Origin: Tupaia tana
Taxonomy: Eukaryota > Chordata > Mammalia > Scandentia > Tupaiidae
Assembly: GCA_026018925.1 (NCBI GenBank)
Contig: JAKSZU010000016.1
Location: 1,612,001 to 1,676,000, forward strand
Direction of reading: 5' to 3'
Length of the DNA stretch: 64,000 nt
The stretch's first letter is position 1. Every line of letters begins with the position of its first letter. The position numbers were made by a program, and so were the translations under genes. Positions 13,385 through 61,021 of the stretch are shown here, piece by piece. The notes below the pieces were generated by a model. That model saw nothing but the letters and a program-made list of their open reading frames with translations. It was not told where the DNA came from and searched no databases.

Positions 13385-13821
13385 TGTTAGGGCGCCGGCC
13401 GCCTGGCTTGGCGCGCTTTCTGTCCAGAGGATACGCGACCCCCAATCAACCAGAAGAGTCGGTTCTTGATGCAAAATGCAAGAGGTTTTATTTTTCCAGC
13501 CGGCTGGGGTCCAAGCAAACACCTGACGCAGCAGGCCTGAGCGAGGACCCCCGTTTTTAGGGTTATAGGTCTTTTCATAAGCAGGAGAAGGTATGCGGAA
13601 GTTTAACGGGTAGTTCATTTCTAGGGGGAAGAGTGGCAGTCTTGTGACACACGTGCATGGGTTGTCTTTCTAGTTCCTTGTCCACATTCCATTTGCTCCG
13701 TTTCTGGAGGTTTGCATAATTAAGTCTGTTGGGGCAGTTTATCACAAGGGTGTCCGGCAAAAGCAAAGGTTAAATTTTATCTCTACAGAGCAAAAAGGCA
13801 TAATTTAAAATTATTCTTACA
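13385..13821 (-). repeat. 3' LTR of the provirus
   Basis: 437 bp. On the coding strand it runs from TGTAAGAATAATTTT to GGCGCCCTAACA. An AATAAA signal lies at about 13487-13492 (minus strand), and a TATAAC-like box lies upstream of it. Confidence 0.95.
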
Positions 13822-13833
13822 TTCCCCCATTTT
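13822..13833 (-). other. Polypurine tract
   Basis: On the minus strand AAAATGGGGGAA immediately precedes the 3' LTR, where a retroviral plus-strand primer belongs. Confidence 0.9.
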
Positions 13834-14079
13834 GCGTTTTTTGGGAGAAGTTTTAATCATAAAACTTATGGACCCACAAGAGCATCGGAATAATTTTCTG
13901 ACTGTTGGAGGGTCTGATGTTGTCGGAGCATGAGTACTTGAACTGCGCTTACTCGGTCACGTACGAAAGTGACTAGGCGGTTTAAAATTCAGGGTCCGAA
14001 GGTTAAGATGAGAAGGAGTATAATTAGGGGACCGAGCAAACTAGAGACCTTTGCAAGCATCCCAGGTGTTAGGTCCTCA
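13834..14079 (-). pseudogene. env: Env transmembrane subunit remnant
   Basis: Only the C-terminal part of the transmembrane subunit remains. A hydrophobic membrane anchor (GPLIILLLILTFGP) is followed by a premature stop where more sequence would be expected, then by cytoplasmic-tail-like residues (RDRVSAVQVL). The fusion peptide, immunosuppressive-region heptads and disulfide motif are absent because a deletion joins the N-terminal SU fragment to this anchor near 14075. Confidence 0.85.
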
Positions 14080-14610
14080 CCAGGGCCCTCTAGTAACAGT
14101 TATCAGAGGGTCTGGGTGTGGCGGAGTCCAAGAAATGTAGCTGGTGGACACACAATCCCAATCATAACAGAAGAAATGTGCAGGGCCCCCACATTTGTAA
14201 GAGTTGCTACCAGGGCAGACATAAAAGTAATGATCGTAGCTGCCTGATTTAGTGCCCGGACCCGCGCATCCATACTGCAGCCTGAAGGGATCCTGGATGG
14301 ACTTAGTCCACAAGTCACCCACGAGGTCACAGAGATCAAATTCTAGGGTGGGAAACCAAGTCCCCAATGGGGCCGTGCGAGTGGTGATGTTAACAACGTG
14401 GTTATCACCCACACAGGAGATTACCCAAGAAAGGGACAGGGGCTTATGGGGGTTGGCACTACTTATCGCAGGCAGAGGCATGAGGAGGAGCAAGACTGCC
14501 GCGGCGAATGCGGAGCTTGAGTGGGTGATCCAGTTTTTCCACCTTCTAAGTGGGGTCTGGCAGAGACGCTGGTTTAGCATGGGAGGCGTGGATCCAAGAA
14601 GCGATGCCAT
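14080..14610 (-). pseudogene. env: Env surface subunit, N-terminal fragment
   Basis: An open frame from 14610 covers the signal peptide (hydrophobic AFAAAVLLLLMPLPAISS at about residues 33-50) and roughly 120 residues of the cysteine-bearing N-terminal surface domain, then stops. About two thirds of a normal Env, including the rest of SU and most of TM, is missing. The start overlaps the end of the integrase frame, as usual in gammaretroviruses. Confidence 0.88.
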
Positions 14611-14611
14611 T

Positions 14612-14840
14612 AACCTTTATCGTCGTTGGAGTGGTCAGCAGTACCAGGTATGGTCCCTTTCACCAAGGTTCGAGGGTGGCCACTCTGTGTCGTTGGATGA
14701 ACACTGAATCTCCAACCTGGAACTGGTGAGGCACCTGGGAGTCTCCTGGCTTGTAGGCCTCTGCAAGTTGAGCCCAAGTTTCTTTTTGGACAAATTTAAG
14801 GGCTTTTAGTCTAGCATAAAGAGATTGAAAAGCTTCTATG
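14612..14840 (-). pseudogene. pol: Integrase C-terminal fragment
   Basis: After a deletion junction near 14840 the pol frame resumes in the integrase C-terminal domain ([11 protein letters not shown], an SH3-like DNA-binding region). It meets TGA at 14660 directly after a Trp codon. The zinc-binding HHCC domain and the D,D,E catalytic core are absent. Confidence 0.85.
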
Positions 14841-15417
14841 ATGTAGCTGCTTCCGTCAGTGAACCAGGTCAGCTGGGCATTTGGTAGCAGCTGATCTTGG
14901 AGATCCCGTCGGGTTCCGGTTTCTTCCGCCCAGACTTCTTGGCAGGTATGGAAGACAGCCCCCTTGGCGGAGGTCTCGGGCAGCAGCGTGGCAGGGTTGA
15001 GAGTGACCGGGGGTCCAAACTGGACCCTGTCCTTGTCTAATAAGAGACTCTGGTAATGAGTCATACGAGCATTGGACAGCCATCGGTTGGGGGGCTGCCG
15101 GATGATGCTCTCTAAAGCGTGGGGGGCAATGGCTAGTAATTTTTGTCCCATAGTCAATTTGTCAGAATTTTTTTACCAATGTCACCACAGCCGCTATCAA
15201 TCTCAGGCAAGCCGGCCATCCCCCAGCCACTGGGTCCAGTTTTTTTTTGAAAGATAGGCCACAGATCTTTTCCAAGGCCTTAAGGGTTGCGTGAGTACCC
15301 CTCGGGCCACCCCCCCCCTTTTTTTTTTTTTCATCTACATATAGAGTGAAAGGTTTTGTCACATCAGGCTGGGTCAAAGTCGGGGCTGATAGTAAGTCAT
15401 CAAAAGCCTGTTGTTGG
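14841..15417 (-). pseudogene. pol: Reverse transcriptase connection and start of RNase H
   Basis: Two frames cover this part. The first (15377-15162) is disturbed around a T12 tract and looks shortened. The second (from 15157) runs through a region containing [15 protein letters not shown] to the first RNase H catalytic motif (TDGSS), then ends at the deletion. I estimate about 1.3 kb of pol is missing compared with complete gammaretroviruses. Confidence 0.85.
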
Positions 15418-16338
15418 TCAATGCCCCACTCGAAGGGGGGCTCCCTCTTTAGTCAGTGGGTAAAGAGGAGCAGCCATAGCGGCGAACCCCGGTATCCATA
15501 GGTGGCAGAATCCCGCTGTCCCCAAGAATTCTCGCACTTGCCGGGGCGTGCGAGGAACGGGGATCTGGGTTACAGTCCATTTTCTGGCTTTGGTGAGCCA
15601 CCTCTTTCCACCCCTTAAAGTATAGCCCAAATATGTTACCTCTTGTTGACAGATTTGGGCCTTTTTAGCAGAGGTGCGATACCCCAGGCGGGCCAGTTCT
15701 TCTAGCAGCAGTCCAGTGCCCTGCTGACATGTTTCTTCGGTTGCTCCTGCGAGCAACAAGTCGTCTACATACTGTAGTAGGGTCACCTCAGGGTGGCTGG
15801 CGCGGAAGTGTGCGAGGTCCTGATGGAGGGCTTCATCAAAAATAGTAGGCGAGTGTTGGAAACCCTGAGAAAGCCAGGTTTGACTTAATTGTCCCGTGAT
15901 CCCAGTGTCTGGGTCCCTCCATTCAAAGGCAAATGTATTCTGGCTGGAGGGGTGCAGTCGCAGGCAGAAGAAAGCATCCTTTAAGTCTAAGACAGTATAC
16001 CAGTCCCGTTCTGGAGGTAGAGAACTTAGCAGGTTATATGGATTAGGTACTGTGGGATGGATGTCCTGTACCCGCTTATTGACCTCCCGCAAGTCTTGCA
16101 CAGGGCGATAGTCACTTGAGCCGGGTGTTTTTACGGGCAGCAAGGGGGTATTCCAAGGTGACTGGCATTTTTTTAAAAGAATACCCAGGTGTAGGAGGCG
16201 TTGTATGTGAGGCCTGATACCTTCTCGGGCTTCTTTAGTCATAGGGTATTGGCGTAGTGCCACAGGGGTAGCTGTAGCTTTTAGTTCTATTAGTATTGGG
16301 GGCCTGTTGGTGGCTAACCCCATTCCAGCTGTCTCGGC
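15418..16338 (-). pseudogene. pol: Reverse transcriptase, fingers and palm
   Basis: An open frame of 301 codons from 16323 carries the polymerase core. [10 protein letters not shown] has the first catalytic Asp and [10 protein letters not shown] the YVDD pair, followed by thumb-region sequence. It is entered after an in-frame TGA at 16339-16341 that separates it from the protease. It leaves frame near a G6 tract at about 15436. Both catalytic motifs are intact here, but no continuous Gag-Pol frame exists. Confidence 0.93.
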
Positions 16339-16800
16339 TCAAGCTTTAGGATATTTTTGCAGCCAAGCATGAAGGGGGCCAGTGTTACTGTCTTGACTTT
16401 CGAAAAGCCGGTGTTCATCTTGTAGGTGTACAGCTAGGACTAATGTCTTCCCATCCGGAGTAACCTTTGGACCCCGTGGGGTAAAATTAATCTGTGCCCC
16501 CATTTTGGTAAGTAAGTCTCTCCCAAGGAGGGGCGCCGGACATTCAGGAATGACCAAGAAGGAGTGGGTCACTAGGCCTCTTCCGAGGTCAACTGTTCTA
16601 TTGGTGGTCCATGGATACTGCTGGTGCCCGGTTGCCCTATAACCCAAGATTTTTTCTTGGAAAGTGGCCCTGATGGTGCCAGTAACACTGAGTGTTGGGC
16701 CCCAGTGTCGACTAAAAAATTAATTGGCTTCCCCTCCACTTTTAGAGTTACCCTAGGCTCGGGGAGGGGCTCCGAGCCCCGTCCCCCCCTAGTCTGAGTC
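16339..16800 (-). pseudogene. pro: Retroviral protease
   Basis: The aspartyl-protease motif is visible as FLVDTGAQHSVL. The frame breaks after it near a T6 tract at about 16650, and the C-terminal part (PAPLLGRDLL, with the conserved G-R-D) continues in another frame to TGA at 16339. Confidence 0.9.
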
Positions 16801-17064
16801 CTTGTGCAGGGCAAGTACTTCGGCCGGAGGGGGCGGCTGCACTTTGTTTTTCTTGGCCCTTTTAGGACAGTCTTTTGCCCAATGTCCTTTTTTTCTTTAC
16901 AATAAGCACACTGGTCCTTGTCTAGTGGGATACGACCAGGCTTTGGTCCCTTGTTGGGGCCCCGTTCTTGTCCCCCTTCCCGCACTACAGTGGCCAGGAT
17001 CTGAGCTAGGTTTTTTTTTTCTTGTCTTTTTTTCTTTTTACTCTCTCTTTCCTCCTTTTCTTTT
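16801..17064 (-). pseudogene. gag: Gag nucleocapsid with broken zinc knuckle
   Basis: A Lys/Glu-rich linker is followed by a single knuckle starting CAYCKEK. The frame shifts in the T7 tract at about 16886-16892 (A7 on the coding strand), so the His and last Cys of the CCHC motif are lost from that frame. Confidence 0.85.
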
Positions 17065-17928
17065 TCACTCCTCTGTTCTCTCTTTTTTTATTTCTCTTTT
17101 ATAATATACTTTTACTGCTTCTTTAACTAAGTCCTGTAAAGAGAGACCCTGCAACTCATCGAGTCTCTGAAGTTTTTTCTTAATATCTAATGCTGATTGT
17201 CCAATGAAGGCCATAGCTACGGAGGCTCTCTGTCCCTCAGAAGCAGGGTCAAAAGGGGTAAACCGCCTGAATGCCTCCATGAGACGCTCAAGAAACACTG
17301 ACGGGGGTTCTGTAGCCCCCTGCATAACCTCTCTTACCTTAGCCAAATTAGTGGGGCGCCTGGCAGCCCCACGGAGGCCAGCCACTAGAGCCTGGCGATA
17401 GACTGTCAGTCGCTCCCTACCTTCTGCCGAATTGTAGTCCCAGTTGGGTCGAGAGAGAGGAAAAGCAGTCTCGATAAGGTTAGGAAGCTGAGTGGGACGT
17501 CCGTCTGCCCCCGGGATATTTTTTCTTGCTTCGAGTAAGATCCTCTCTCTCTCTTTGGTGGTGAAGAGAGTCTGCAGGAGCTGCTGGCAATCGTCCCATG
17601 TTGGCTGATGAGAGAACATTAGGGACTCTACCAGGCTGGTTAGGGGCTGGGGGTCCTTGGAGAAAGGGGGGTGGTTAGTTTTCCAGTTGTAAAGGTCAGA
17701 GGAAGAAAAGGGCCAATATTGGAGAGGCTGTAGGGGAGGTAGCCCCTCGTTGGTATGCGGAGGTGGGGGCCCATAGGCCCGTAAGGGCAGTGCCACAGTG
17801 GTATCAGGAGACGGGAGTGCGCGACGTTGACTCCTAGTGCCCTGAGCAGGCCCTAGAAGGGCACCCTCAGAGGGGGCGAAAGGACCAAGTCTAACGTTAG
17901 GTGACACTCGGGGTCTCTGCGCCTTTCT
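17065..17928 (-). pseudogene. gag: Gag capsid
   Basis: A 280-codon frame holds the capsid. It includes a stretch resembling the gammaretroviral capsid N-terminus ([19 protein letters not shown]) and the major homology region ([20 protein letters not shown]). It is out of frame with the matrix part, and the switch coincides with a G10 homopolymer at 17947-17956. Confidence 0.92.
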
Positions 17929-18399
17929 TCATCTAGCGGAAGGGACGGGGGGGGGGTATGGGGGAGGGGTGTCTAGGAGAAGGAGGTCTCGGGTCTCTGG
18001 ATAGATTCGCTTAGGACGTTTGGTAAGGTCTGTACCCTCTGGAGGGTTGGGGGACTGGGCCACCAGGACCTGAGGGGGGTTTGGACGGGGCCTGGGCAAC
18101 CATGGTTGAACCCATGAAGGTGGGTTTTGGATCAGATCTTGCCAAACGATGAGGTACGGTTGCTGGTCCGGATGACTTCCTGGTCCCTTCTGAAAGACAA
18201 TGTCTTTGACGGAAAGGATAGCGTTAAGGTCAAACGTGCCTTCGGGTGGCCACCCGACACCAAAGGTGGGCCACTCAGAGGCACAAAACGTCTGCCAGAG
18301 TCCCTTTTTAATTTCTACAGACAGGTCGCGACCTCTTCCCTTCACTTCAGTCCAGTGTCTGAGAGTCAAATTTAAAGGAGTCACCACAGTCTGTCCCAT
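17929..18399 (-). pseudogene. gag: Gag matrix and PPPY region
   Basis: The ATG at 18399 starts MGQTVVTPL, a typical N-myristoylation start. A further ATG two codons upstream is in frame and less likely. The frame carries the PPPY late-domain motif near its end and stops just after the G10 tract. Confidence 0.92.
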
Positions 18400-18789
18400 C
18401 GTCAATGGTTAGGTTAAGAGTACAGACAACAGAACAAAGAACAGGACAAGACAAACAGAAAGTAACTACCGATTTTTGTTTTCCACAATCTTAGGACAGA
18501 TTCAGACGGGCGCAGGCCAAAATATGTACCGGATCTGCGCCCTTACCGTAGGAGACGATCAGGCGTCCCTAATCCTCCTCCACCCTTAGGGCGTCCCCCA
18601 GGGCTGCAGCCTGTGGTTCTCCGGGCACGTCTACCAACCACAGTTCGGCTATTTTACAATAGGCCGAACGGCTGCGAAACCTGAAACAGACTATTGGGTA
18701 CCACACCGAAACAAACAAGAAAGTCGACAAACAGGGGTTTTTTAGACTTACCTCCAAGGCCGACGTTGTAGATGATGGGTAGCCACGAT

Positions 18790-18807
18790 ATCCCGGACGA
18801 GCCCCCA
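18790..18807 (-). other. Primer-binding site, tRNA-Pro type
   Basis: The coding strand reads TGGGGGCTCGTCCGGGAT, complementary to the 3' end of tRNA-Pro, three bases after the 5' LTR. This is the classical gammaretroviral primer. Confidence 0.97.
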
Positions 18808-18810
18808 AAA

Positions 18811-19247
18811 TGTTAGGGCGCCGGCCGCCTGGCTCAGCGCGCTTTCTGTCCAGAGGATACGCGACCCCCAATCAACCACAAGAGTCGGTTCTTGATGCAA
18901 AATGCAAGAGGTTTTATTTTTCCAGCTGGCTGGGGTCCAAGCAAACACCTGACGCAGCAGGCCTGAGCGAGGACCCCGTTTTTTAGGGTTATAGGTCTTT
19001 TCATAAGCAGGAGAAGGTATGTGGAAGTTTAACGGGTAGTTCATTTCTAGGGGGAAGAGTGGCAGTCTTGTGACACACGTGCATGGGTTGTCTTTCTAGT
19101 TCCTTGTCCACATTCCATTTGCTCCGTTTCTGGAGGTTTGCATAATTAAGTCTGTCGGGGCAGTTTATCACAAGGGCGTCCGGCAAAAGCAAAGGTTAAA
19201 TTTTATCTCTACAGAGCAAAAAGGCATAATTTAAAATTATTCTTACA
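18811..19247 (-). repeat. 5' LTR of the provirus
   Basis: 437 bp, same ends as the other LTR. AATAAA at about 18913-18918 (minus strand). Confidence 0.95.
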
Positions 19248-19322
19248 CCGCAAGCCTTTGGGCGCGTCGCTTGGCACAATCAGCCATGTGGACCCAGCTG
19301 CTTAACCACCAGGTGGCTGGAT
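19248..19322 (-). mobile_element. SINE-C head, split by the provirus
   Basis: Continues the copy at 13243-13384; ends TTAACCACCAGGTGGCTGG. Confidence 0.7.
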
Positions 19323-22013: not shown

Positions 22014-22027
22014 GTCCTCTCTTGTTT

Positions 22028-22030
<3 letters not shown>

Positions 22031-22058
<28 letters not shown>

Positions 22059-22262
22059 TTATCTATTTTTTATTACATTGAATTACATGTAACTTTACAG
22101 TGTATTACATTGCTTTTTCAAAAGGGAATGCCATGCATGTCAGTCAGTACAGAGACATTAATCTCCCCGCTTCAACATTCAATATCTTTCCTATGTTTCC
22201 CCCAATCATTATTATTATTATTCTAATTATTTTTTATGATAAACATGATTTTTTTTCCAATT
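22031..22262 (-). repeat. AT-rich 3' end and (TAAA)n tail of composite element 1
   Basis: On the minus strand this reads through GACTGACATGCATGG and TGTAATACACTGTAAAG to a (TAAA)n tail. The second element has the matching GACTGACATGCATAG. It may be the 3'UTR of the resident L1 family. Confidence 0.7.
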
Positions 22263-22429
22263 ATCAGATCATAAAGTTCCCAACAATAGGAAACGTAGAC
22301 TGCACTCAGGGCTGGACCAAGGGTGGATCTCGTGCAGCCCCGCAAATGTAGGTGAATCTCCATGGAACACAGTTTCAGGAACGCGGCTCAGGAAAGCAGA
22401 GACGGCCATCAGCGGTTGGGGCACGCGGG
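22263..22429 (-). repeat. Shared 3' module of the composite elements
   Basis: About 165 bp that is roughly 90% identical by eye to 53808-53975. It includes ACTGTGTTCCATGGAGA and GGTCCAGCCCTGAGTG on the minus strand. Origin unknown. Confidence 0.8.
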
Positions 22430-23990
22430 GCAGAACCCGGCCACGGCACGCGGGGGCAGACCCCGGCCACGGCACGCGGTGCAGACCCCGGCCACGGCAC
22501 GCGGGACAGGGCCCCGGCCATGGCACGCGGGACAGAGTCCCGGCCACGGCACGCGGGGGCAGGCCCCGGCCACGGCACGCGGGGCAGGGCCCCGGCCACG
22601 GCACGCGGGGCAGGCCCCGGCCACGGCACGCGGGGTCAGACCCCGGCCACGGCACGCGGGGTCAGACCCCGGCCACGGCACGCGGGACAGGGCCCCGGCC
22701 ACGGCACACGGGGGCAGGCCCCGGCCACGGCACGCGGGGCAGGCCCCGGCCACGGCACGCGGCGGCAGACCCCGGCCACGGCACGCGGCGGCAGACCCCG
22801 GCCACGGCACGCGGGACAGGGCCCCGGCCACGGCACGCGGGGGGCAGGCCCCGGCCACGGCACGCGGGGCAGAGTCCCGGCCACGGCACGCGGGGCAGAA
22901 CCCGGCCACGGCACGCGGGGGCAGACCCCGGCCACGGCACGCGGGGCAGGCCCCGGCCATGGCACGCGGGGCAGAACCCGGGCACGGCACGCAGGGGCAG
23001 ACCCCGGCCACGGCACACGGGACAGGGCCCCGGCCACGGCACGCGGGGCAGAGTCCCGGCCACGGCACGCGGGGGCAGAACCCGGCCACGGCACGCGGGG
23101 CAGAACCCGGGCACGGCACGCGGGGGCAGACCCTGGCCACGGCACACGGGACAGGGCCCCGGCCACAGCACGCGGGGCAGAGTCCAGGCCACGGCACGCG
23201 GGGCAGAGTCCAGGCCACGGCACGCGGGGCAGAACCCGGCCACGGCACGCAGGGGCAGACCCCGGCCACGGCACACGGGACAGGGCCCCGGCCACGGCAC
23301 GCGGGGCAGAGTCCCGGCCACGGCACGCGGGGGCAGAACCCGGCCACGGCACGCGGGGCAGAACCCGGGCACGGCACGCGGGGGCAGACCCTGGCCACGG
23401 CACACGGGACAGGGCCCCGGCCACAGCACACGGGGCAGAGTCCAGGCCACGGCATGCGGGGCAGAGTCCCGGCCACGGCACGCGGGGCAGAACCCGGCCA
23501 CGGCACGCGGGGCAGAGTCCCGGCCACGGCACGCGGGGCAGAACCCGGCCACGGCACGTGGGGTCAGAGCCCCGGCCACGGCACACGGGACAGGGCCCCG
23601 GCCACAGCACACGGGGCAGAGTCCAGGCCACGGCATGCGGGGCAGAGTCCCGGCCACGGCACGCGGGGCAGAACCCGGCCACGGCACGCGGGGCAGAGTC
23701 CCGGCCACGGCACGCGGGGCAGAACCCGGCCACGGCACGTGGGGTCAGAGCCCCGGCCACGGCACACGGGACAGAGCCCCGGCCACGGCACACGGGACAG
23801 ACACTGGCCAAGGCACGCGGGGTCAGAGCCCCGGCCACGGCACATGGGGCAGAGCCCCGGCCACGGCACGCGGGACAGACCCCGGCCAAGGCACGCGGGG
23901 CAGACCCCGGCCACGGCACGCGGGGCAGACCCCGGCCACGGCACACAGGACAGAGCCCTGGCCACGGCACGCGGGGCAGAGCCCGTCGGG
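22430..23990 (-). repeat. GC-rich VNTR, ~25-bp unit, about 60 copies
   Basis: On the + strand the unit is CCCCGGCCACGGCACGCGGG plus GCAGA-like joints of varying length (24-26 bp). CpG is almost entirely preserved. Frames up to nearly 600 codons run through it on both strands, but they are low-complexity by-products. A 181-bp higher-order block of seven units is repeated at about 23441 and 23622. Confidence 0.95.
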
Positions 23991-24134
23991 CGGACCTCCA
24001 GACAGGGCACGTGGAGCGGAGCCCCCGCACCCTGATCCCGCACCCCAGCACGTGGATTGGAGCCCCCGCGCCCGCCTTCCCACCCCCGCGCGCCGGCCCG
24101 CGGAGCGGAGCCCCCGCCTGCCGCCCCTGGACGT

Positions 24135-24623
24135 TTAATTGTGTCTAGTACTTCTTGCATATTATTCTCAAAGTTTTGGGCCATTTTCTCAGTCTTTTAT
24201 GGTGGACCTTTCTAGGTCAGCCATTTTCTCTTCTACATTAGAGATTCCATTTTCTGAATGATCTAGACTGCTTTTAATACTTTCAAGGAAGATTTTGACT
24301 TCTTCTATTATATCCTTCATCTCTAACAGCTCCATCTGATTCTTTTGTAAAGTGTGAAACTCCTCTTTTAGATCTTGCATGAATTTCCTCACCTCCTAGA
24401 ACTCTTCAACTCCTTTCTCCTTCCCCTTCAGCAGTTCCTTGTCTCTCTTCTCTTCGATCTCTGTTAGCTTTGCCATTATGAATGATCTGAATTGTTTATC
24501 AGACATTTCCATGAATTCCCTTGAACTGTGTGTGGATGAAGAGGAGCTATCCATTTCAATTGGAGGAGGGGCATTTTCCTGCTTCTCCATATTTCTTGTG
24601 GTCCTGCAGCGATTTCTAGTCAT
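24135..24623 (-). pseudogene. L1 ORF1 N-terminal fragment
   Basis: The minus-strand frame shows an N-terminal tail (MEKQENAPPP, then a poly-Ser stretch) and a long Lys/Glu/Leu-rich coiled coil (VRKFMQDLKEEFHTLQKNQM and NGISNVEEKMADLERSTIKD), as in mammalian L1 ORF1p. It is interrupted by TAG at 24396-24398 and TGA at 24189-24191, with a probable one-base shift. It is cut off at about 24134 where the GC-rich linker begins, so the RRM and C-terminal domains are absent. ORF1p is the RNA-binding chaperone of L1; this fragment cannot act as one. Confidence 0.85.
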
Positions 24624-24759
24624 CTGGTGGATGGTCGGTTTCTTCCCAAACTTTTGAAGTTTAATATAAAGGTTGGGAAGTGTGCAGAAAAGGAAGCAGA
24701 GAGAGGGAACAATACCACCAACAACAAAAAAAACAGACAAGAAACAGAGAAAAAGAAGA

Positions 24760-25324
24760 GAAAAGCTTTGGAATTCATCTAAAAAAGAAAAATTAATATT
24801 AAAAAAATTTCAATAAAAATCAAAAATTAGAAAACCGCGCTAGCGCGCCGCGCGAAATGTCTAGATCTCAGGAGCCATTGAGCAGACTGTCTCTTGAAGA
24901 AGGGCTGTTCTGGGAGGAGCAGAGGGGATTATTAACAAAACAAAGGCCTAGGAGGGAGGGGCCAAAGGGCCCTGTAAGAAGCCTCACCTTAAAAAATTCT
25001 AAAAAGCAAAAATTAAAAAAAAAGACAGACAGACAGACAGAGAGAGAGAGAGAGAGTGAGAGGTAGAGAGAGACAAAGATTGATTCAGAGACAGGAGATA
25101 TGAAAGGGGTTTTCCTACCACGTGGGTTTTGTATGCTGGAGGCCCAGTTAGGAGTGGGACATCTTCATTTCTCCCAGCATGTCTAGATCTCAGGAGCCAT
25201 TGAGCAGACTGTCTCTTGAAGAAGGGCTGTTCACGTGGGTTTTGTATGCTGGAGGCCCAGTTAGGAGTGGGACATCTTCATTTCTCCCAGCATGTCTATA
25301 TCTCAGGAGCCATTGAGCAGACTT
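24760..25324 (-). promoter_or_regulatory. L1-type 5'UTR with tandem monomers
   Basis: The segment TCTCAGGAGCCATTGAGCAG occurs three times (about 24865, 25189 and 25300). An ACGTGGGTTTTGTATGCTGG segment occurs twice (about 25119 and 25230), giving a ~111-bp tandem period. Monomeric 5'UTRs that act as promoters are known from mouse L1. A CpG palindrome, GCGCTAGCGC, lies at about 24836-24845. Confidence 0.7.
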
Positions 25325-25364
25325 GTCCTCTCTTGTTTTTAAAAATAAGCCTTAAGAGTACAGT

Positions 25365-42979: not shown

Positions 42980-61021
<18,042 letters not shown>

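Follow-up and report, generated by a model that had tools for sequence, protein, structure and literature searches.

The 64-kb stretch of Tupaia tana DNA analyzed here (contig JAKSZU010000016.1, positions 1,612,001 to 1,676,000; hereafter the window, the numbering of which is used throughout) carries two related retroelements, copy 1 (22031-25324) and copy 2 (53322-56121). Copy 1 is very probably a member, designated type I, of a young, non-autonomous family of retroelements without long terminal repeats (LTRs), in which an L1 promoter in the 5' untranslated region (UTR) is followed by a dead fragment of ORF1, a GC-rich array of variable-number tandem repeats (VNTR), a 3' module and an A tail. 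The existence of a family is based on direct observation, namely a junction common to many copies, separate target-site duplications, L1-type target sites in the window and a shared stop codon in ORF1. The best reading of the sequence data is that these elements would form a VNTR-composite family which L1 mobilizes in trans and which is convergent on SVA and LAVA rather than belonging to them.

Copy 1 reads 5' to 3' on the minus strand, with its tail at 22031 and its 5' end at 25324. The original prediction, made from the letters alone, described a single element in which a 17-bp duplication brackets an L1 promoter region, an ORF1 fragment, a GC-rich VNTR of about 25 bp, a 170-bp module and an A-rich tail. 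All of these parts were recovered and the composite nature of the element stands, while its description needs revision in three respects: the element lies on the minus strand, its ORF1 is a dead fragment shared with other copies, and there are two related kinds of element, of which one carries the L1 promoter and ORF1. The VNTR was called as a tandem repeat at 22420-23985 with a period of 26 and 60.8 copies, and a count of the units gave 60, of 25–27 bp each. The 170-bp module corresponds to module A, which is 91% identical over 176 bp between copy 1 (22249-22424) and copy 2 (53793-53968). The junction between ORF1 and VNTR sequence had been placed near 24134; comparison with a related protein (P0002, see later) and with copy 2 moves the boundary to about 24128/24127. 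Between them, the GC-rich lead-ins that precede the VNTRs of the two copies gave an alignment score of 113, against a maximum of 51 in 300 shuffles. An array of CT hexamers was not found in either window copy, the longest run being a single hexamer.

The family was tested by searching the genome from which the window comes (2.95 Gb), as the original prediction had proposed. A search with copy 1 returned 77 matches among the 40 scored of 5,307 candidates, from which 30 loci were cut out, including that of the window, and 20 loci, none of them the window's own, were read at 8 kb. Short patterns were counted in the genome, each beside a control pattern. The ORF1–VNTR junction (CAATTAAACGTCCAGGGGCGGCAGG), with up to two mismatches allowed and its backwards pattern as control, occurs at 591 sites and is present in all 30 fetched copies, with a few one-base differences and with VNTR units following in every case, so that the junction first noticed in copy 1 is indeed a common one. 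The type I join between VNTR and 3' module was counted at 834 sites, and a 23-base pattern from module A at 2,723; each of the three controls gave zero. Among 12 exact junction sites listed for one contig (C111), ten are followed on the same strand, after 683–2,090 bp, by an exact module A site that is also listed, and an eleventh has the VNTR–3' module join. The order 5'UTR, ORF1, lead-in, module A and module B was seen in 20/20 loci, and the sequence from lead-in to module A consisted in all of them of VNTR alone (17–96 units, 453–2,487 bp, 79–83% GC), with the largest gap between unit marks being no more than 69 bp. Patterns from module A and the VNTR had no match in viral contigs, nor did the VNTR pattern in genome contigs, and alignment A1 had no match in contigs of either kind.

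The duplication around copy 1 (GTCCTCTCTTGTTTTTA) is exact over 17 bp, falls precisely on both ends of the element and occurs nowhere else in the window (Table 1). It includes GTCC, the end of the head of an adjoining short interspersed element (SINE), repeated without the remainder of that SINE. As background, exact 17-mers repeated at distances of 1–6 kb make up 44 rows in the window, 11 of which lie in the LTRs of a provirus (see later) and most of the others apparently in pieces of SINEs; at the spacing of copy 1, 42 of 20,000 random pairs of 40-bp segments shared even a 12-mer. The plus-strand target of both window duplications is TTTT/A, the preference of the L1 endonuclease, and that of copy 1 in full is TTTTT/AAAAA. 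Elsewhere in the genome, duplications scoring at least 11 flank 13 of the 20 other type I loci (ten exact, three with 1–2 mismatches), all of them different in sequence, and none was found in 200 displaced controls.

Separate duplications around copies with the same order of parts bear out the view that the parts move as one unit. The original prediction had also considered a single chimeric event, and this is excluded by the 591 junction sites and the 13 different duplications, which stand equally against copies arising by segmental duplication; although the junction is present in only one of the two window copies, an origin of either kind is scarcely credible. A private template-switch chimera, an idea suggested by copy 2 running 180 bp past the junction position without ORF1, was likewise rejected given the junction in 30/30 copies and at 591 sites. 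Some points do weigh against the family as described: only 30 copies were read, and these were picked by likeness to copy 1; at seven of the 20 loci a clear duplication was missing, with a weak match at one and nothing at six; among the 13 duplications counted, two are A-rich with 1–2 mismatches; and the frames discussed below as a supply of L1 enzyme are candidates, identified by RVT_1 matches and length.

A protein search with the ORF1 fragment found four relatives, of which P0002 is 76% identical over 131 aa and carries PF02994 and PF17490, the Pfam domains of L1 ORF1. At the point where the copy 1 fragment ends (...TIKRP), P0002 continues as ...TIKRPNIRIIG. The genome of the window itself contains L1 ORF1 copies that match this protein at 98% identity, and 132 of 132 scored matches to it, from 86,177 first-look candidates, are free of stop codons and are mostly frames of 340 aa. 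P0002 is filed under Streptomyces narbonensis, and presumably represents foreign DNA in a public bacterial assembly. Direct domain and structure searches with the fragment were less informative, with ORF1 pieces giving chance coiled-coil matches in Pfam and, taken singly, no firm match in the PDB; the joined pieces matched ten PDB chains with E values of 0.13–9.8, mostly coiled coils, the third being the coiled coil of human ORF1p (E 0.61). Neither ORF1 nor P0002 had a match in viral contigs. Upstream of ORF1, the 5'UTR of copy 1 is built of 113-bp monomers, the number of which varies among type I copies, and the 5' ends fall within monomers. The monomer-type L1 promoters of other mammals likewise have variable numbers of monomers and 5' ends inside them.

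All 30 type I copies have a TAG at codon 76 of ORF1 (29 by motif, with one neighboring base changed in L013), leaving an ORF1 of 75 codons in 28; in the other two, the frame either runs to the common stop from an upstream ATG (L027) or ends at another stop three codons earlier (L019). Apart from the stop at codon 76, the majority frame of the 30 copies remains open throughout the region that was compared, and since the frameshift seen in copy 1 is not found in the majority, it was not a trait of the founder. The early stop is kept in every copy, and the founder was therefore non-autonomous. The 30 copies have a mean identity of 98.0% (96.5–99.7%) and diverge from their majority sequence by 1.06% at non-CpG sites (0.34–2.06%), although older copies are under-represented in these figures because the 30 are the best matches to copy 1. 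A coding fusion of ORF1 and VNTR was considered and rejected: the frame is open in copy 1, but so are several other frames of the array, and the early stop is present in 30/30 copies. In a comparison of the ORF1–VNTR translation with 5.8 billion proteins, none of the 6,105 candidates reached E ≤ 0.001.

That type I elements have no reverse transcriptase (RT) of their own is read from their layout, with the ORF1 stop in 30/30 copies and VNTR alone between lead-in and module A in 20/20, and no scan was aimed at RT itself. Their RNA would start in the L1 monomer promoter, would be polyadenylated at the 3' module, and would be copied in trans by ORF2p from intact L1s of the same genome. The genome abounds in RVT_1 matches whose stop-free frames span 1,290–1,343 aa, a length close to that of L1 ORF2. 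Of 24,721 RVT_1 candidates 150 were scored, and in these more than 30 rows have exactly 1,290 aa and a few have one stop, which fits the presence of many intact L1 ORF2 genes.

A present-day L1 relative (L051) has monomers and an intact ORF1 of 340 aa but lacks ORF2, and its 3'UTR includes a polypurine stretch rich in G. It is flanked by a duplication of the TTGCCAGAGGG type, as judged by eye, and resembles a half-L1; if most of the 132 scored ORF1 matches were to lack ORF2, they would form a very young ORF1-only family, of which L051 is the one locus read. Since the ORF1 of L051 and that of type I are 85% identical in DNA, type I comes from another or older branch of L1. Such ORF1-only elements raise the question of whether the Tupaia elements are composite at all, or instead derive from an L1 or half-L1 lineage with a VNTR in its own 3'UTR and an internal deletion. 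Between the 3' end of copy 2 and the end of the L051 3'UTR there is a weak alignment (score 65, against a maximum of 61 in 200 shuffles); however, four other 3' pieces, including modules A and B of copy 1, did not rise above shuffles against that 3'UTR, so that an L1-derived 3' end is possible only. Moreover, the L051 3'UTR contains no VNTR, and elements of the copy 2 kind possess the VNTR and 3' parts together with a 5' end of their own and no L1 ORF1. An origin by internal deletion of such an L1 is accordingly judged improbable, and a composite element is retained.

Copy 2 represents the second kind, type II. L1 5'UTR and ORF1 had no match in it, its lead-in extends about 180 bp further 5' than the start of the type I lead-in, and its VNTR includes some units of 39–46 bp. 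Between the VNTR and module A lie 580 bp that are absent from copy 1; this post-VNTR part and the next 249 bp had no match in any of the 20 type I loci. Searched against the genome, the segment 53971-54550 gave 2,030 candidates, and 40 of 40 scored matches were full-length, being that of the window and 39 others at 94–97% identity. The VNTR–module A join of the copy 2 kind was counted at 160 sites (control 0). A second type II locus (L052) has the same 5' end as copy 2 (GCGCGCGTGCGCCGG), and because these two loci, the ones read, start alike, type II appears to have its own, non-L1 5' end. L052 adjoins an intermediate-filament exon (Filament, E 6.7e-11). By eye, the 580-bp difference sits at a GTGCC motif common to both ends, and so resembles the microhomology changes that the available text of PMC4432496 describes for the VNTRs of SVA and LAVA. 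The target sequence of copy 2 (CAGGAATCTGTATTTT) is common to three successive retroelements, copy 2 and two SINEs, over the span 52847-56138; it occurs at 52847, 53305 and 56122, and with two mismatches at 53026. This row has the appearance of successive insertions, with the duplication made by each one restoring the target site.

The simplest history, drawn without the rooting of a tree, would place type II first and make type I its promoter-bearing derivative. The L1 promoter was probably gained, as far as the bases around the junction indicate, when a 5'-truncated VNTR element entered L1 ORF1 at AATT/AAAC. In this founding step, which is less certain than the existence of the family, a promoterless type II-like element would have landed at AATT/AAACGTCCA, after which read-through RNA from the L1 promoter would carry the L1 part and the VNTR element together. 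The type I lead-in begins about 180 bp inside the type II 5' end, the last L1 bases ahead of the VNTR sequence are AATT AAACGTCCA, and a TTAAA located 9 nt before the join is the endonuclease site expected if AAACGTCCA were the landing duplication; by chance, 17 of 478 ORF1 positions do as well. At another locus (L053, C1197:74850300-74850700), the A tail of a SINE abuts AAACGTCCAAATATCC of an L1 ORF1, exactly the point at which type I leaves L1, and for this reason the site is probably usable as a target.

Against this history and founding step stand the following. A loose motif set fits 66 of the 478 ORF1 positions, and the full TTAAAA motif is absent from the junction, which has TTAAAC. The founder locus was not found, since patterns combining an A-run with ACGTCCAAAT occurred at chance level (10 versus 12 in the control, 1 versus 1, and 8 versus 13), and the one founder-pattern match looked at was the L053 SINE seen from its tail side. 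The counts of joins (160 for type II, 834 for type I) give no support to type II being the older and larger stock, and as many as 1,729 of the 2,723 sites with module A fit neither of the two joins.

A serious rival is that the founder arose at the RNA level by template switching, ligation or splicing, with ORF2p leaving VNTR RNA within the lead-in and switching to L1 RNA inside ORF1 (or with the two RNAs joined by ligation or trans-splicing), and the product becoming a source element. L1 chimeras with many RNAs made by these three routes are described in the available part of PMC13174262. Such an event would account for the lead-in being 5'-truncated relative to type II, for the clean join and for the same orientation of the L1 and VNTR parts; it is also favored by the failure of the founder DNA locus to turn up in the pattern searches, and the join TCCA/GGGG can be read by eye as ..CAG/G.., making splicing possible. 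It does not, however, predict an endonuclease-like site 9 nt before the join (17 of 478 positions have one by chance), and intact relatives have Asn after KRP, so that, judged from the protein, a GT donor is not available at that point. An RNA-level origin is thus given substantial weight but rather less than an even chance, and landing in ORF1 remains the preferred explanation.

Table 1. Positions of the parts of copy 1 and copy 2 in the window.
Feature	Position	Strand	Remarks
Target-site duplication, 3' side of copy 1	22014..22030		Exact, 17 bp
A-rich tail of copy 1	22031..22060	-	Minus-strand letters AATAAATAAATA...
3' module B of copy 1	22061..22245	-	97-99% in 20/20 type I copies
3' module A of copy 1 (170-bp module of the original prediction)	22246..22424	-	96-99% in 20/20 type I copies
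VNTR of copy 1	22425..23984	-	Units of 25-27 bp resembling GTGCCGTGGCCGGGGCTCTGCCCCGC, about 60 in number
GC-rich lead-in of copy 1	23985..24127	-	Homologous to copy 2 lead-in
L1 ORF1 fragment of copy 1	24128..24623	-	Codons 1 to about 165, end ...DTIKRP
L1 5'UTR of copy 1	24624..25324	-	One complete 113-bp monomer, a partial one of 92 bp and a 54-bp piece
Target-site duplication, 5' side of copy 1	25325..25341
Target-site duplication, 3' side of copy 2	53305..53321		Exact, 17 bp
Tail and 3' end of copy 2	53322..53792	-	Polypurine stretch, weak likeness to L1 3'UTR
3' module A of copy 2	53793..53968	-	91% to copy 1
Post-VNTR GC-rich part and extra 3' module of copy 2	53971..54550	-	No match in 20 type I copies
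VNTR of copy 2	54551..55802	-	More varied units
GC-rich lead-in of copy 2	55803..56121	-	Shares its 5' end with locus L052
Target-site duplication, 5' side of copy 2	56122..56138

The window contains other repeats. A gammaretrovirus-like provirus lies at 13385-19248 on the minus strand, with matches to Gag_p30 and RVT_1 and with LTRs that are 97.9% alike over 437 bp; it was considered as the source of the 3' module and rejected, as the 3' part of copy 2 had no match to it. A minisatellite of 33 bp (25.7 copies, 95% matches) is found at 60043-60889. SINEs are dense across the window and by eye look tRNA-derived, two queries giving 59 and 55 hits of at least 70 bp, which may overlap. ARAGORN predicted no tRNA genes in the window, and literature searches for the SINE letters and for Rhin-1 SINEs returned nothing. 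An approximate Alu consensus had no hits at E ≤ 1e-5 in the 64 kb, and this result, together with the many hits of other SINEs, speaks against a hominoid genome.

VNTR composites are called specific to hominoids in the accessible portions of PMC4432496 and PMC7353768, the former listing CT hexamers, an Alu-like part and a VNTR as features common to SVA, LAVA, PVA and FVA. The accessible portion of PMC13174262 cites SVA as a composite born from recombination and mentions no VNTR composite outside hominids, that of PMC5857283 names LAVA in its references only, and no VNTR composite outside primates was found in the titles and abstract openings returned by searches of open-licence papers. These statements, the lack of an Alu match in the window and the missing CT-hexamer array agree with the suggestion of the original prediction that the family evolved independently. 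The evidence leans, with some reserve, toward VNTR composites having arisen outside apes by convergence, with two generations preserved, first the promoterless type II and then type I, which would have obtained an L1 promoter by landing in ORF1. If true, the use of L1 in trans would have been solved more than once by a GC-rich tandem array, which would then be no accident of ape history, and a second independent origin would make it testable which RNA features matter for L1. Because of that second origin, an Alu-like part would not be needed in general, and GC-rich tandem repeats would be the element that recurs. The pair of types would also offer a before-and-after view of promoter gain by a non-autonomous element, within a family that is young and numbers hundreds of copies.

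The general features of VNTR composites are present in the Tupaia family, with the common junction (591 sites), the constant order (20/20), a GC-rich VNTR of variable length, an A tail and target duplications. Like SVA of hominoids, it is non-autonomous and composite, with a GC-rich VNTR core, an A tail and duplicated targets of the L1 type, and this part of the SVA/LAVA-like layout proposed for copy 1 holds, together with the predicted lack of RT. The likeness does not extend to the CT-hexamer array and Alu-like part, neither of which was detected, or to the VNTR unit, which is 25–27 bp in copy 1 compared with 30–50 bp in SVA; in addition, the Tupaia family has an L1 5'UTR and dead ORF1 as its 5' end, and occurs in an apparently non-primate genome. 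Capture of 5' sequence is itself known among SVAs, the available text of PMC6139936 giving SVA_F1 with MAST2 and pt_SVA_D6 with STK40. LAVA, PVA and FVA of gibbons belong to the same class of element, and LAVA also holds L1-derived sequence, at its 3' end according to the available text of PMC4432496. In the Tupaia elements, by contrast, the L1 part is a 5' promoter and ORF1, and the CT/Alu-like 5' part was not found.

HAL1 or half-L1 elements are ORF1-only derivatives of L1. Type I resembles them in having an L1 5' end and ORF1 without ORF2, as in the present-day example L051, but differs from their intact ORF1 in the stop at codon 76 and the end at about codon 165, and in possessing a VNTR core. 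A parallel to type II is SVA2, which the available text of PMC4432496 names as the shared ancestor of VNTR composites in hominoids and which has a unit of 39–40 bp. Type II would play the matching role, with VNTR and 3' sequence and without the later 5' module, although its unit length and lineage are different and the two are compared by description, not sequence. Since hexamer arrays, Alu and, in copy 1, a 30–50 bp unit are all lacking, the Tupaia elements are assigned to a family of their own, similar to SVA and LAVA in the way it works.

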